The position numbers were made by a program, and so were the translations under genes. A stretch of DNA of 64,000 bases, taken from contig QKEL01000011.1 of assembly GCA_003252395.1 (NCBI GenBank), positions 1 to 64,000 on the forward strand. Reading direction: 5' to 3'. Below, one piece after another: positions 13,152 to 19,124 of the stretch (its first letter is position 1; the number at the start of each line of letters is the position of its first letter). The notes beneath the pieces were generated by a model, which did no database searches, was not told the DNA's origin, and saw only the letters and a program-made list of their open reading frames with translations. This stretch comes from Spirochaetales bacterium. Lineage in GTDB: Bacteria > Spirochaetota > Spirochaetia > Treponematales > Treponemataceae.

Positions 13152-15557
13152 GTGCGTACCGCGCCAAAACTCGCGCTCAGTCTAATCATCTCATCGCTCC
13201 TCTTCGCGGGATTGGCGGCCGCGGCGTACGCGGGCCTATTCGGCGTACTGGAAACGAAGTTTTACCAGCCCACGGTCATCGTCGGCTACGAGGAACGGCT
13301 TAAGGCCATTTCGGGGGGCCTTTCCGACTGGCACGACTCGAACGTAGGCGAATTCAAGGCGTTTATCGCCGCCGACCCCGTCCGCAGGAGCCTCCTCCCG
13401 AACCAGAGCGCCCAGGACGTCTTCGACCGCACGAACCTCGCCGGAGACCTAATGTCGCGCCTTCCGGGCCTCGTCGGCATAAGGATCATAGATTCCGGAG
13501 ACCCGACCCTCGCCGAATCCGAGGACCGGGGAACCAGAAGGATACATTTCAGCACCTTCCCGTCGGATATCCTTAAAAAGGAAGATTTCCAGGTCTCTTA
13601 CGAAATGTACGGCAGAAACGAGGGCGAACTCGCGTTCAAGACTATAGAACGGGCCGACGGGGAACCGCCGCTTTTGACCTTCGATTCCGAATCTGACCGA
13701 TTCGTGTACTCCTTTCCGTTTTACGACGGGTATTCCACGTGGCGCGGAACGGCGGTCTTTTATCTAACCGCCCGATCGGCCGTTCAGGGCCTCGTGGGGA
13801 AAAACCTGCTCCGCCTGAGCGACGAATTTACGTTGATCGGGAAGCCCGGCGACCCGGCAAGCGGTTCGGTCCTGGGACTCCCGCGCACGGGCCGGGATAT
13901 CCTCGCCGAGGCGATACTCGCACGCTGGTCGCGGAAGGATTTCCTGACCGATCGGATCGTGGATACCGACGATTCAGGCTGGGTTCTCGTTTCCTTGCCC
14001 ACCGGGAAGTGGGGAAATGCGGGCGAGGTAGTGGATGAACGGCTCTTCGCCTTCCCTCCCGCGGTAAGGGCGCTCTTCCTCACGGTAAGCTTCCTCACCA
14101 TTTTTCTCGTTATCTTCCTTATCTTTAACCTGCGCCAAGACCCGATGCTCGTCGCGCGGATGCGCATTCGCCGTCTCCAGGGGCAGTTGCTGCAGGAAAT
14201 TCTCGAAAAGACCGACGAGGTCCGCTGGGAAGAGGTACGCGCGAGCCTTGCCTATCGGAAACACGACGTCGCCTCGGAAATCCAAAAGTCCTTCCCGAGG
14301 CGGATCAGAAAGCGCCATGGCAAGGAAATAGACCTCCTGCTCGACCAGAGCTGGGACGAAATACTGGCCGCGATCGGCAATCAGGAGTCCCGGGAGAATA
14401 CCCGGCTCGATACCGATGGAATCCGGTACATGCTGGAGCAGGTACTCCAGAACAACGCCATCTCTCTCAATCTCACCGGCGTCAATGCGGCGCCGGTTTC
14501 CGCCGTTAAAGCCAAACCGAAGGCACCGCCGCAACCGATTGAGGTCGAGGATCTATCGGACGTTGAGGAGCTATCGGACGTCGAGGAACTTTCTGAGGTC
14601 GAGGAGCTATCGGACGTCGAGGAACTTTCGGAAGCCGAAGAGCTTTCAGACGTCGAGGACCTTTCTGAGGTCGAGGAGCTATCGGACGTCGAAGATCTTG
14701 CGGAAGCCGAGGAACTTTCAGACGTCGAAGAGCTATCGGAAGCCGAGGAACTTTCAGACGTCGAAGAGCTATCGGAAGCCGAGGAACTTTCCGAAGCCGA
14801 GGAGCATACCGAACCCGAGGAACTTTCCGAACCCGAGGAACTTTCCGAACCCGGGCCGAAAGACGAACTCCCCGATGAACTTGACCCGGCATACATCATC
14901 GACGATCTCTCTGTCATCGGCGACGTATCGGCGATTAACGAGACCGACTTTTTCACGATTGATATGGATTTGTACGGTCACGATCCCGATGCCGACGTTT
15001 TCGGCGACGATTTTGGGGACGAAACCCTTGAGGTGGAAGAAGTCGAGTACCTGGAAGGGGAGTGGGAACCCGAGCTCCTGGAAGTCGCGAACGACGACGA
15101 ACTTGCGAACTTCGTGGAAAGCCTGGAACCCGATTCCGTCCTCGTGTACAATTTTGAGGAATCGCCCGCGGACCTTCTCCCCTCGCCCGTATTTGACATG
15201 GAAGACGAGGCCGTCGCTCTTCCCGAAGACTTTCGCATCGGCGCGCCCGATTTTACTTCTCTTGATGCGCTAAATAACGAGGAAGCGACGCCCGTGAGCT
15301 ACATCGACGCGTTTTTGGAAAAGAAGCCGGTATTGGATCTCGCCATGTACACCGGCGGTCAGGTTTTTGAATTGCTGGAAGTGGTCGGCGACGAAGATAT
15401 CGAAGAACTCGCGGATTTGGAAGAAAGCCCCCGGACGGCGGCGGAATCGATCCTCTCTGCCGACGGCCTTTTCCTCGTGGATCCGGGAGTTACGAGCCGC
15501 GTTCCCAAGGAACTGGACCCCGAATTCAAGGAATTGGTGGATTCGGTTCTGCGTTAG
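13152..15557 (+). CDS. Large two-TM protein with acidic hexapeptide repeats, function unknown
   Basis: The 801-aa product starts at GTG, three bases after GGAGGA. One TM helix (about 7-29) is followed by a periplasmic region of about 270 residues, a second TM helix (about 303-326) and then a cytoplasmic part. The latter begins with a charged helical stretch (RMRIRRLQGQLLQEI, RKHDVASEIQKSF). Next come 17 tandem hexapeptides of the form L-S-(D/E)-(V/A/P)-E-(E/D) (residues 468-569) and a very acidic C-terminal 230 residues. The TM-periplasm-TM layout recalls CHASE-type sensors, but no kinase, HAMP or cyclase domain follows. I do not recognise the family. Confidence 0.75.
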   Translation: MRTAPKLALSLIISSLLFAGLAAAAYAGLFGVLETKFYQPTVIVGYEERLKAISGGLSDWHDSNVGEFKAFIAADPVRRSLLPNQSAQDVFDRTNLAGDLMSRLPGLVGIRIIDSGDPTLAESEDRGTRRIHFSTFPSDILKKEDFQVSYEMYGRNEGELAFKTIERADGEPPLLTFDSESDRFVYSFPFYDGYSTWRGTAVFYLTARSAVQGLVGKNLLRLSDEFTLIGKPGDPASGSVLGLPRTGRDILAEAILARWSRKDFLTDRIVDTDDSGWVLVSLPTGKWGNAGEVVDERLFAFPPAVRALFLTVSFLTIFLVIFLIFNLRQDPMLVARMRIRRLQGQLLQEILEKTDEVRWEEVRASLAYRKHDVASEIQKSFPRRIRKRHGKEIDLLLDQSWDEILAAIGNQESRENTRLDTDGIRYMLEQVLQNNAISLNLTGVNAAPVSAVKAKPKAPPQPIEVEDLSDVEELSDVEELSEVEELSDVEELSEAEELSDVEDLSEVEELSDVEDLAEAEELSDVEELSEAEELSDVEELSEAEELSEAEEHTEPEELSEPEELSEPGPKDELPDELDPAYIIDDLSVIGDVSAINETDFFTIDMDLYGHDPDADVFGDDFGDETLEVEEVEYLEGEWEPELLEVANDDELANFVESLEPDSVLVYNFEESPADLLPSPVFDMEDEAVALPEDFRIGAPDFTSLDALNNEEATPVSYIDAFLEKKPVLDLAMYTGGQVFELLEVVGDEDIEELADLEESPRTAAESILSADGLFLVDPGVTSRVPKELDPEFKELVDSVLR
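14553..14858 (+). repeat. 17 x 18-bp in-frame tandem repeat (acidic hexapeptides)
   Basis: Seventeen units of 18 bp encode LSDVEE, LSEVEE, LSEAEE, LSDVED and, at the end, LSEPEE/LSEPGP variants. Codons differ between units (cta/ctt, tcg/tca/tct, gac/gag), so the tract is old or under protein-level selection rather than a recent slippage product. The period of 18 bp keeps the frame, so copy-number change would lengthen or shorten the acidic arm without breaking the gene. Confidence 0.95.
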
Positions 15558-15559
15558 GC

Positions 15560-16342
15560 CTATTTGCGCGAGAGAATCAGCCGCGCGATTTCCGCGAAGC
15601 CCGCCCCATAGGGCTTCGACGCGACCCAGGCCGGTTTATGTTTCATAGTCGGGAGCCATTGACCCACGTTCGCAACCGCGCAGGCGTTCGGAAAATGGGC
15701 GAACATCGGCTCGTCGTTCGGGGCGTCGCCCACGTATAAAACCCGCTCCCGGTCCCGCCCGTCGTCGTACCCCTCGCGTAGCCGCAAAAAACGGAGTGCC
15801 GCGTCCCGCTTATTGAAATCCCCGATCCAGCAATTAACGTGAATCGAGCTTGGTTTTGCCTGGCATCCCCTCGCCTCGAATATTCGCACGATCCGCGCCG
15901 TTTCCTCTTGCGTCAGGGGCGGGACGATCCGTTCCGCGTGGTCGATGGCGTAATCGTACCGGCGCAAATGGTTATCGGTCGCGGGCTTGGCGCGCCCAAC
16001 GGACCGGTAGGCCTCTTCGGCGGCAAGGCGTATGCGCGGGTCATCGTTGGGCGCCGCGCCGGGAAACGGGAACTCTCCCGATTCGTCGAACGCGATGGCC
16101 CCGTTCTCGGTTATGGCGCCGTGAATCGGCCATTCCTGGAGGTGAACGCTCCCCCAGCCCGCCGAGCGTCCGGTCACCGCGATCAGCCGGAATCCCGCCG
16201 CGTTAAGGTCGCAGAGGGCGGCATACGCCTCGCTTACCAGCTTTCCGCCTTCCGTCATGGTATCGTCTATGTCGGTAAGTATCCAGCGTAAATTCCGGAT
16301 CGTCCGCGCGGGCATTTCCGCTATGGGGCGCATGGTCGTCAT
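15560..16342 (-). CDS. HAD-superfamily (class IIB, Cof-like) phosphatase
   Basis: The 260-aa product has HAD motif I as DIDDTMTEGG, motif II VTGRSAGW, a conserved Lys and motif IV YVGDAPNDEPMF. The large cap between motifs II and III puts it in the Cof/sucrose-phosphatase or mannosyl-3-phosphoglycerate phosphatase group. The substrate is unknown, probably a sugar phosphate. It is convergent with the acidic-repeat gene, with 2 nt between stops. The ATG used has TTGACT-N18-CATACT ending 8 nt upstream, so the mRNA has almost no leader. Confidence 0.88.
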   Translation of the reverse strand: MTTMRPIAEMPARTIRNLRWILTDIDDTMTEGGKLVSEAYAALCDLNAAGFRLIAVTGRSAGWGSVHLQEWPIHGAITENGAIAFDESGEFPFPGAAPNDDPRIRLAAEEAYRSVGRAKPATDNHLRRYDYAIDHAERIVPPLTQEETARIVRIFEARGCQAKPSSIHVNCWIGDFNKRDAALRFLRLREGYDDGRDRERVLYVGDAPNDEPMFAHFPNACAVANVGQWLPTMKHKPAWVASKPYGAGFAEIARLILSRK

Positions 16343-16350
16343 GGTTGGAA

Positions 16351-16380
16351 AGTATGCAGGGGGGGGATGGGGGGAGTCAA
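16351..16380 (-). promoter_or_regulatory. Near-leaderless promoter of the HAD phosphatase gene
   Basis: -35 TTGACT (16375-16380), 18-bp C-rich spacer, -10 CATACT (16351-16356) on the minus strand. Eight bases separate the -10 from the ATG, giving a leader of about 1-2 nt. Confidence 0.6.
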
Positions 16381-16412
16381 TCGCCCCGGGCGCGAAACGG
16401 GTTAAATATCGG

Positions 16413-16835
16413 TTAACCGCGGCCCGAACGGCGCGCGCCCGACGTCCGGTCCCGTTCGGCGATCAAGAGGTCCACGATCTCCTCGTCCGCCGGGGCGAAA
16501 AGATAGTCTTCCATCTCCCCCACGGATACCCAGCGAATGTCGTCGTGGTCGTGCAGCCTCATGCGGCCGCCGGCCATGACGGCCCGGACCGCGATAAGCC
16601 GCACCACCTTGTCGCCGTAATCGTAAACCGATTCCGCGAAGGCGCCGCCGGTTTCGATATGGACGTCCATCTCCTCGCGAAGCTCGCGGACGGCGCAAGC
16701 CTCCGCCGTCTCGCCCTCCTCGATCTTTCCGCCCGGGAATTCCCAGTATCCCCCGAGGCTAATCTCGGGCTTCCTTCGCGCGATGAGGATCCGGCCTTCG
16801 CGGTTTTCTATGACCGCCGCGGCTACGTCTATCAT
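16413..16835 (-). CDS. Nudix hydrolase, MutT-type
   Basis: The 140-aa product carries a full Nudix box, GGKIEEGETAEACAVRELREE in its G-x5-E-x7-R-E-x2-E-E pattern (about 35-57). It follows the beta-strand VAAAVIENREGRILIARRKPE, typical of 8-oxo-dGTP-cleaving MutT or related NTP pyrophosphohydrolases. LGGYWEFPGGK supports the MutT subgroup. The start is fixed by a TTGACA-N18-TATACT promoter ending 6 nt before the ATG; a longer ORF start upstream would lie in the promoter. Its -35 is shared with the divergent thioesterase gene. Confidence 0.9.
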   Translation of the reverse strand: MIDVAAAVIENREGRILIARRKPEISLGGYWEFPGGKIEEGETAEACAVRELREEMDVHIETGGAFAESVYDYGDKVVRLIAVRAVMAGGRMRLHDHDDIRWVSVGEMEDYLFAPADEEIVDLLIAERDRTSGARRSGRG

Positions 16836-16841
16836 GCCTTG

Positions 16842-16893
16842 AGTATAGGCCCGGGTCGCGAAGATTGTCAAAACGGCCGGCGACGGGTATGCT
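16842..16893. promoter_or_regulatory. Divergent leaderless promoters sharing one -35 element
   Basis: The 7-mer TTGTCAA at 16865-16871 reads as TTGTCA on the plus strand and TTGACA on the minus strand. Plus: N17 then TATGCT (16888-16893), 7 nt before the thioesterase ATG. Minus: N18 then TATACT (16842-16847), 6 nt before the mutT ATG. Both mRNAs should start at their initiation codon. Confidence 0.7.
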
Positions 16894-16900
16894 AGTCGCC

Positions 16901-17305
16901 ATGAAACACACCGCGAAACTCACCGTTCGCTCATACGAGCTGGATTCCTACAACCACGTGAATAACGCCGTTTATCTGGAATACCTTGAATACGCGCGCA
17001 TGGAATACCTTCGCGCGATCGGCTTCGACTACAATGCCCTCGTCGGCGCGGGGTATGCCCTTTTCATATCCAGGGTGGACATTCGCTACCGCGCGCCCGC
17101 GGTCCTCTTCGACGAGCTTTCGATAGAGGTTACCCCGTTGAAGGCGGGCAAGCTCTCCGGCACGTTCCGTCAGGAAATCAAGAACCAGCGGGGGGAGCTG
17201 TGCGCCGAGGCGGAGGTAAGCTGGGGCTGCGTCGACAGGACCGGCAAACCCTCGAAGATACCGGCGGAACTCTTGGTTCCCGGCTTTGACCCCGAAACGA
17301 ACTAG
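16901..17305 (+). CDS. Acyl-CoA thioesterase, 4-hydroxybenzoyl-CoA thioesterase (hotdog) family
   Basis: This 134-aa hotdog-fold protein has the diagnostic SYELDSYNHVNNAVYLEYLEYAR, with the catalytic Asp in the LDSYNHVNN segment, and DIRYRAPAVLFDEL. It is similar to YbgC/FadM-type thioesterases that hydrolyse short or medium acyl-CoAs. The chosen ATG has no Shine-Dalgarno and lies 7 nt after a TATGCT -10 box; an in-frame ATG 36 nt upstream would overlap the promoter. It stands alone, facing the PHP gene. The physiological substrate is not evident. Confidence 0.9.
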   Translation: MKHTAKLTVRSYELDSYNHVNNAVYLEYLEYARMEYLRAIGFDYNALVGAGYALFISRVDIRYRAPAVLFDELSIEVTPLKAGKLSGTFRQEIKNQRGELCAEAEVSWGCVDRTGKPSKIPAELLVPGFDPETN

Positions 17306-17320
17306 CCCCCGCGCCCCGGG

Positions 17321-18127
17321 TTATGCCCGTACCGGGCCCTTGGCGAAGGCCAACGCTTCTATGGCGTCAACGGTCGGTATTCCCCGCGAATACGCCCACG
17401 TTTCGGCGTTGCGAGCCTGCGCGAGCGCGTCCTGAGGCCGGTGAGCGTCGGAATTGCATATCAATACGGCCCCTTCCGAGGCGGCCAGCTCCAGAAACTC
17501 CCTTACCGGATACGGGGGCCTCATTCCCTCGGGTCCGGCTATCCGGGGTTTCGTAAGACCGAGGCCGTTTACCTCCATGGGGATACCGGCCGCAATGGCG
17601 GCGGCAATAATATCCTTCGAGGCGGCCTTAAGGTCCGCGTCCCACCGGGGAAACCCGGCAAGAAAGATATCGGGATGGGCGAAAAGGTCGAATAACCCGC
17701 TCGAAAGGCCTTCGAGGGTCAGGTCCACGTACGGCTTGAGGTTTCGGGGATCGCCCGCGTCGGGAATGTATTCAAAACAGCCGTCCACTTCCACCCAGTG
17801 GGAACCGTACACCAGGTATTCCGCCCCCGTTTCCGCGCGCAGGAAATCGCGATACCAGGATTCGTATTTCGGGTGCCACTCGCACTCGAACCCCCAGAAG
17901 AACGGAAACGCGGCTTGCTCGCGGGCGGCCTTAACCAGGGACAAATACTCGCGCACCTGAGACGGATCCATTCGGCTGCCGCCCCACGTTCCGTCGGGAT
18001 AGGGGCAATGGTCGGAAATGCCGAGGCCGGAACAGCCTTCGGAAGCGGCGACTTTCACGTAATCGATCGGATCGCCGGAAGCGTGCCTGCACAGGCGGGT
18101 ATGGGTATGGAAACTGCTGATGTTCAC
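17321..18127 (-). CDS. PHP-domain phosphoesterase, histidinol-phosphatase (HisJ/K)-like
   Basis: The 268-aa product has PHP metal-binding blocks FHTHTRLCRHA (near the N terminus), GISDHCPYPD, GFECEWHP, YGSHWVEVDG, FAHPDIF and ICNSDAHRP, all intact. This is the histidinol-phosphatase-like PHP family, but no his genes are nearby. It could act on another phosphomonoester. A GTG start is chosen because a TATAGT -10 ends exactly 6 nt before it; the ATG 18 nt further upstream overlaps that -10 box. It is divergent from nothing, and downstream of the PfkB gene by 53 bp. Confidence 0.85.
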   Translation of the reverse strand: MNISSFHTHTRLCRHASGDPIDYVKVAASEGCSGLGISDHCPYPDGTWGGSRMDPSQVREYLSLVKAAREQAAFPFFWGFECEWHPKYESWYRDFLRAETGAEYLVYGSHWVEVDGCFEYIPDAGDPRNLKPYVDLTLEGLSSGLFDLFAHPDIFLAGFPRWDADLKAASKDIIAAAIAAGIPMEVNGLGLTKPRIAGPEGMRPPYPVREFLELAASEGAVLICNSDAHRPQDALAQARNAETWAYSRGIPTVDAIEALAFAKGPVRA

Positions 18128-18133
18128 GGCGCC

Positions 18134-18162
18134 ACTATAGCGCATGGCGTACCGACGGGCAA
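18134..18162 (-). promoter_or_regulatory. Leaderless promoter of the PHP gene (GTG start)
   Basis: -35 TTGCCC (18157-18162), 17-bp spacer, -10 TATAGT (18134-18139) on the minus strand, then 6 nt to the GTG. Confidence 0.55.
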
Positions 18163-18179
18163 GCGGGAAGGATCGTCGA

Positions 18180-19124
18180 TCAGGGAGGGTCGCGAAAGGC
18201 GAGGGAACCGGAGCCCAACGCGTCCGTTACCGCTTGGCGCTCGGGAATAGAGGGAACGGCGCCCCGTTTCGTCACGCAAAGGCCGGCGGCGGCCGAGGCT
18301 TCCCTGAGCGACGCTTCGGGTTCGGCTCCGCGCAACCGCGCGGCGATGAAGTATCCCGTGAAGGTATCGCCCGCGGCCGTCGTGTCCACCGCGGTAACCG
18401 AGGCCGCGCCCATGCGAACCGTATTGCCGGCCGAAACCGCGGAACCCGCGCCGGAATGCCATAGCGAGCCCCGAGAACCCAGCGTTATCAGGATTTCGGC
18501 GCCGGGAAACCGGCGGGCAACCGCGGAGAGAAGGGTATCGGGAGTATCGCTTTCCGCCCCGGAAATAAGAGCGGCTTCCAGGGCGTTCAGGATCAGGCAG
18601 TCCACCAGGCCCAGGGGCAGCGAGGCTATGACCGAATCCGCGGGAGAGGGATTCAGGAAAACCTTCATTCCCCGTTCATGGGCACGGCGTATGGCTTCCG
18701 CGAGGGAGGATATTTCGTTTTGGAGCAGTACCGCGTCGCCTTCGCCCCACCCGGAAAGCATAGCCTCGATATCGTTCGGGCCAATGTCACGGTTGGCGCC
18801 GCCGTACACGATTATGCTGTTCTCGCCCCGCCGATCCACCTGGATCACCGCCCGGCCGGTCGGGCCGGAAGAAAGGCCGATCCGTCCGGTATCCACCCCG
18901 CAGGAAGCGAGAAAGCCCACTGCGTCGCTTCCGTCGGAACCGACCTTTCCCCCGAACGCCACGTTCGCGCCTGCCCGGGCGAGCGCTATCGCCTGGTTAT
19001 TCCCCTTTCCCCCGAGATACCGGTTATACGAATCGCAGGAAACGGTTTGTCCGGGAACGACTATGTCGGAAACGGAGTATACTTCGTCGAGATTGATGGA
19101 GCCTATTACGAGGATTCGCTTCAT
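18180..19124 (-). CDS. PfkB-family carbohydrate kinase, ribokinase-like
   Basis: The 314-aa product starts with VIGSINLDEVYSV and has the first PfkB signature GGKGNNQAIALARAGA. It also has the second signature VDTTAAGDTFTGYF, with the catalytic Asp in AAGD, plus the monovalent-cation loop region. These match ribokinase more closely than fructokinase. It would phosphorylate ribose or a related sugar with ATP. It starts 6 nt after the DUF5312-like gene stop and is likely co-transcribed from that gene's promoter. No sugar transporter is adjacent. Confidence 0.88.
   Translation of the reverse strand: MKRILVIGSINLDEVYSVSDIVVPGQTVSCDSYNRYLGGKGNNQAIALARAGANVAFGGKVGSDGSDAVGFLASCGVDTGRIGLSSGPTGRAVIQVDRRGENSIIVYGGANRDIGPNDIEAMLSGWGEGDAVLLQNEISSLAEAIRRAHERGMKVFLNPSPADSVIASLPLGLVDCLILNALEAALISGAESDTPDTLLSAVARRFPGAEILITLGSRGSLWHSGAGSAVSAGNTVRMGAASVTAVDTTAAGDTFTGYFIAARLRGAEPEASLREASAAAGLCVTKRGAVPSIPERQAVTDALGSGSLAFRDPP

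Follow-up and report, generated by a model that had tools for sequence, protein, structure and literature searches.

How can two genes that are transcribed away from each other both be expressed from a gap of 65 bases? This question is raised by a divergent gene pair in the window, the stretch of 64,000 nt analysed here, which belongs to an assembly of 3.4 Mb. A mutT gene starts at ATG 16835 on the minus strand and a thioesterase gene at ATG 16901 on the plus strand. The initial annotation had named the two genes from their sequences, and both identities were borne out by matches to family models (Table 1). It had also proposed that a pair of divergent leaderless promoters has one -35 element of the gap in common. 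An exact re-check of the sequence reproduced its coordinates, hexamers and spacings as well as the 65-bp distance between the start codons.

Table 1. Genes and predicted promoter elements of the mutT-thioesterase region (positions in the window)
Feature	Position	Strand	Description
mutT	16413..16835	minus	MutT-like NUDIX hydrolase, predicted leaderless; PF00293, 1.4e-20; TIGR00586, 92.4 bits, slightly under the cut-off of 97.9
Thioesterase gene	16901..17305	plus	YbgC/FadM-type 4HBT acyl-CoA thioesterase, predicted leaderless; PF13279, 4.5e-23; TIGR00051, over the cut-off
Shared -35 heptamer TTGTCAA (minus strand TTGACAA)	16865..16871	both	Invariant in 13/13 species
Thioesterase -35, TTGTCA	16865..16870	plus	5/6 consensus
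Thioesterase -10, TATGCT	16888..16893	plus	17 nt after the -35; ends 7 nt from ATG 16901
mutT -35, TTGACA	16871..16866	minus	Perfect consensus
mutT -10, TATACT	16847..16842	minus	18 nt after the -35; ends 6 nt from ATG 16835

The layout is that of back-to-back sigma70 promoters, with a -35, a spacer within 16-18 bp and a -10 on each of the two strands. The predicted mutT promoter agrees with the consensus at 11 of 12 positions, the thioesterase promoter at 9 of 12. The short distances between each -10 and its ATG are conserved and leave no room for a Shine-Dalgarno sequence in a leader, as is expected of leaderless genes. A simple scan of positions 15500-18500 returned 4 promoter-like sites, compared with 0.9 ± 1.0 in shuffled sequence.

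Some neighbouring genes also deserve mention. The HAD-IIB hydrolase gene 3′ of mutT has a predicted leaderless promoter of its own (TTGACT-18-CATACT, 16342-16380, minus strand), which ends 8 nt from the ATG. At a PHP-domain gene, the sequence TTGCCC-17-TATAGT (18127-18162, minus strand) ends 6 nt before an internal GTG at 18127, and this spacing suggests that GTG 18127, rather than ATG 18145, is the true start of the gene. In a large protein encoded at 13152-15557, ELSDVE-like repeats form an acidic tandem array (14400-15000).

Leaderless promoters are common in the genome from which the window comes, since the TANNNT motif of the -10 shows a sharp peak 6-8 nt before ATG. In 1.26 Mb sampled from this genome, the motif occurs 58, 50 and 25 times at 6, 7 and 8 nt before ATG, compared with about 18 times per position elsewhere. 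A sample of 0.8 Mb from a second genome (G008) gave 34, 27 and 15 occurrences at the same distances from ATG candidates, compared with about 13 per position elsewhere. Gene starts in these samples were taken from a simple coding-score finder. Derived from 105 leaderless sites, the promoter of this lineage reads TTGaca, a spacer of 17-18 bp and TAtaCT, and both the mutT and the thioesterase promoter fit this description. The peak agrees with published work that predicts leaderless genes in spirochaetes (PMC3160421) and with the many leaderless mRNAs in a start-site map of Leptospira interrogans (PMC5243855).

The gene pair was compared in 13 species, namely 12 of the genus, the window genome included, and one (G028) from another genus of the same family, Treponemataceae. 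The two genes are divergent in all of them. When the sequences were aligned on the heptamer, TTGTCAA and the A that follows it (16865-16872) showed no variation, and 12 of the 13 species also have A16873. The mutT -10, which always ends 6 nt before the ATG, reads TATACT in 12 species and TACAAT in the remaining one. For the thioesterase gene, every species has kept a TANNNT -10, with a spacer of 17-18 bp in front of it and a distance of 6-9 nt to the ATG. Both -10 elements thus lie at spacers of 17-18 bp throughout, and the start codons are 64-66 bp apart. The spacers themselves have diverged, and at most other columns the commonest base is found in only 4-8 of the 13 species. Among the four-fold degenerate columns of the thioesterase gene, none of 14 is invariant in the same species comparison. 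Silent sites are therefore well mixed, and the invariant block of eight bases is not merely due to shared ancestry. Position 16865 belongs only to the plus-strand hexamer and position 16871 only to the minus-strand hexamer, and both are fixed. It is the invariance of the heptamer across 13 species that settles that the promoter pair is more than a chance occurrence, and the proposal of one -35 common to two apparently leaderless promoters is strongly supported. Two of the conserved bases, A16872 and A16873, are not demanded by either -35 hexamer, which counts against our explanation.

Loci at which the two genes are apart served as controls. Among 71 thioesterase loci that do not adjoin mutT, TTGWCAA was found in the -35 window of only one (L089). 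TANNNT is located 6-8 nt from the start in 37 of these 71 loci, compared with 1-10 in control windows. In one genome (G021), the two genes are on different contigs and no mutT was seen upstream of the thioesterase gene; here, the lone mutT has TTGACAG, in which the seventh base is not A, and the lone thioesterase gene has TTGCTC. Four loci of horse-gut and related treponemes (L088, L090, L091 and L095) carry an inverted repeat, (A)TGACA-N-TGTCAT, over the thioesterase -35, which is possibly an operator. Inspection by eye of these four loci revealed no opposite -10 at promoter spacing.

The layout is not restricted to mutT and the thioesterase gene. Two leaderless promoters exceeding a 1% null were found in 23 of 210 divergent pairs scored in samples of the window genome and G008. 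A second exact case of TTGTCAA in the window genome lies between rnz, encoding tRNase Z, and an isochorismatase-like gene, 64 bp apart. TTGTCAA is retained at this pair in 12 species, which represent three genera; in 19 genomes that lack the rnz layout TTGWCAA is absent, and a leaderless -10 is still present in at least 12 of them. In a census of 12 genomes of the genus, TTGTCAA was found in 85 leaderless promoters and TTGACAA in at least 150, compared with only a handful of matches to reversed control patterns. At no fewer than 28 loci in these genomes, one heptamer would serve leaderless genes on both strands, with starts 61-66 bp apart. Many of these loci are orthologues and hence not independent, and the distinct gene pairs number at least 6. 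Further pairs include SecA/lipoprotein, EF-G-like GTPase/coiled protein, SmpB/signal peptidase and solute-binding lipoprotein/small protein, all of which were named by reading the sequences and not by family models. Conserved cases of the shared heptamer include those at rnz, secA, the EF-G-like gene and smpB.

Additional support comes from loci that were selected for one promoter only. Among 30 sampled leaderless TTGTCAA loci, 21 have a TANNNT on the opposite strand at a spacer of 16-18 bp, where the second gene was not required to be leaderless. The counts are 4, 9 and 8 at spacers of 16, 17 and 18 bp, compared with about 0.75 for each other spacer. The TTGACA of the opposite gene therefore usually accounts for the off-consensus T of TTGTCA in this genus. 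Of 30 TTGACAA loci, 6 have an opposite TANNNT at a spacer of 17 bp. The layout is also not confined to one genus, since 7 of 30 TTGTCAA loci in another family of the order have an opposite -10 at 17-18 bp, among them a repeated signal-peptidase pair. Judged from these sequence comparisons, the predicted shared -35 is a recurrent promoter class and no one-off. Some of the recurrent families have a leader on one side, which counts against our explanation.

Several other elements were encountered during this survey. A family of TTGTCAA loci beside gyrB shows no clear opposite -10, which likewise speaks against our explanation, and was left out of the count. At four of these loci (L307, L315, L322 and L329), the sequence TTGTCAAAAAAAGTAAAGAAGG(A/G)GTATAATG, divergent from gyrB, hardly varies within the genus, but several species have a broken frame downstream of it; the element possibly belongs to a leadered gene or an RNA. 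Two sites of the window genome with overlapping divergent promoters, C1:156481/156548 (TTCACAA) and C1:148318/148387, are not conserved across the genus and were dropped as evidence. At another divergent leaderless pair (L152, G000:C6:197737-197797), the two -35 elements are interlocked in the palindrome TGTCATTGATGACA, which may be an operator between the two promoters.

Could the conservation of the heptamer have another cause than two promoters? If only the mutT promoter were real, the thioesterase gene would be transcribed from elsewhere or weakly, and the likeness on the plus strand would simply result from the symmetry of TTGACAA. The closer agreement of the mutT promoter with the consensus is in line with this idea. 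Moreover, part of the constraint on position 16865 could stem from the mutT promoter alone, because an A directly follows the -35 hexamer in 45 of the 105 leaderless promoters of the training set; a smaller count had indicated no strong preference for A, an argument that this larger set weakens. However, the plus-strand -10 has been kept at 17-18 bp in every species amid diverged sequence, T16865 is invariant, and thioesterase orthologues carry a leaderless -10 away from mutT as well. A lone mutT promoter thus appears very unlikely to us. We assign an equally low probability to the idea that the heptamer is an operator through which a transcription factor controls the two genes, its likeness to a -35 being incidental. 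In favour of this idea, TTGWCAA is a near-palindrome and conservation extends past both hexamers to A16872 and A16873. On the other hand, the heptamer is always found at -35 spacing from both -10 elements, and the genes concerned are functionally unrelated housekeeping genes. In addition, flank conservation varies with the gene pair (TTGTCAAAA, CATTGTCAAG, TTGTCAATCCC), a variation not expected of an extended operator common to all pairs.

We therefore favour, with a probability of roughly 85%, the explanation that the intergenic region consists of back-to-back housekeeping (sigma70-type) promoters with a single common -35, and that both mRNAs are leaderless. The reverse complement of TTGWCAA is almost the same sequence, and region 4 of the sigma factor could therefore bind it either way round. 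In one orientation, the perfect TTGACA would be read and transcription of mutT would be initiated at its ATG. The opposite orientation would present TTGTCA, with one mismatch, and lead to initiation at the thioesterase ATG; region 2 of sigma would be placed on a different -10 in each case. Each -10 is predicted to place +1 at the start codon or directly beside it. Both mRNAs would then be leaderless, and the promoter module would occupy the entire gap of 65 bp. The same 7 bp cannot hold two sigma region 4 domains. Since two polymerases cannot hold these base pairs together, we infer that a single polymerase is bound to the heptamer at a time and that the two directions are initiated in alternation and not together. 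At ordinary firing rates, this exclusion would probably cost little and the arrangement would mainly provide compact co-packaging. Real competition would be expected only if one direction is strongly used.

The initial annotation had interpreted the close spacing as a built-in mutual exclusion. At the binding step, such exclusion can be deduced from general promoter structure; as a built-in regulatory effect, it is unproven. A true regulatory switch would mean that, through competition for the -35, expression of mutT excludes that of the thioesterase gene and vice versa, to the physiological benefit of the cell. The footprints of the polymerases must overlap, and at E. coli promoters with a shared -10, activation in one direction leads to repression of the other (PMC12825309). 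In the same promoters, however, basal transcription is too low for competition, and exclusion was seen only upon activation of one direction (Warman et al. 2026, PMC12825309). The weight of the exclusion therefore depends on promoter strength. Furthermore, a functional link between the MutT-like and the thioesterase enzyme is not evident, and the layout is also found at secA, smpB, rnz and EF-G-like genes, where there would be little point in mutual exclusion between unrelated partners. A switch thus seems improbable, though less so than a lone mutT promoter or an operator. Compact packing is the likelier reason why the layout has persisted, because it joins unrelated housekeeping genes.

The predicted promoter pair resembles two known systems. 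Like the bidirectional promoters described by Warman, Grainger and colleagues (PMC12825309, PMC10268837), it has a near-symmetrical core element that is read on both strands to give divergent mRNAs, and polymerase would hold this element in one orientation at a time. Those promoters share the -10, and their starts are 7-25 bp apart, most often 18 (PMC12825309, PMC10268837). In contrast, the -35 is shared here, the -10 elements are separate, and the predicted starts are about 65 bp apart, which places the region outside that definition. The second system is ddrR-umuDAb of Acinetobacter, a divergent gene pair whose -35 elements overlap according to 5′-RACE and at which mutations in this region abolished both transcripts (PMC7273328). 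There, the -35 elements also overlap an inverted repeat for the UmuDAb repressor, and the two genes respond to DNA damage (PMC7273328). Overlap between -35 elements has been described for individual cases such as this one. The region studied here differs in that it has one near-palindromic heptamer, both genes are predicted to be leaderless and no regulator is evident. A TANNNT -10 directly upstream of the start codon is shared with leaderless genes of bacteria including spirochaetes (PMC3160421, PMC5243855), and divergent leaderless pairs with a common -35, such as mutT and the thioesterase gene, are not described in the passages of these two reports that were consulted. A literature search that took in little of the subscription literature found no description of a conserved set with one near-palindromic -35, and the Acinetobacter pair was the only instance that it returned.

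The near-symmetry of TTGWCAA might give rise to a second general class of bidirectional promoters in bacteria, one in which the starts are about 60-68 bp apart. This class would be widespread in lineages with leaderless genes and, in this genus and another family of the order, would be conserved at essential genes and set the intergenic length; we consider the chances of this proposal to be evenly balanced. If a conserved set of promoters with a shared -35 is indeed present, both core elements of bacterial promoters would be symmetrical enough to be read both ways, and the preferred intergenic length of divergent leaderless genes would be explained. With separate -10 elements, one -35 and single bases (16865 and 16871) that are each needed by one direction, the mutT-thioesterase region would also offer a natural test system for promoter competition.
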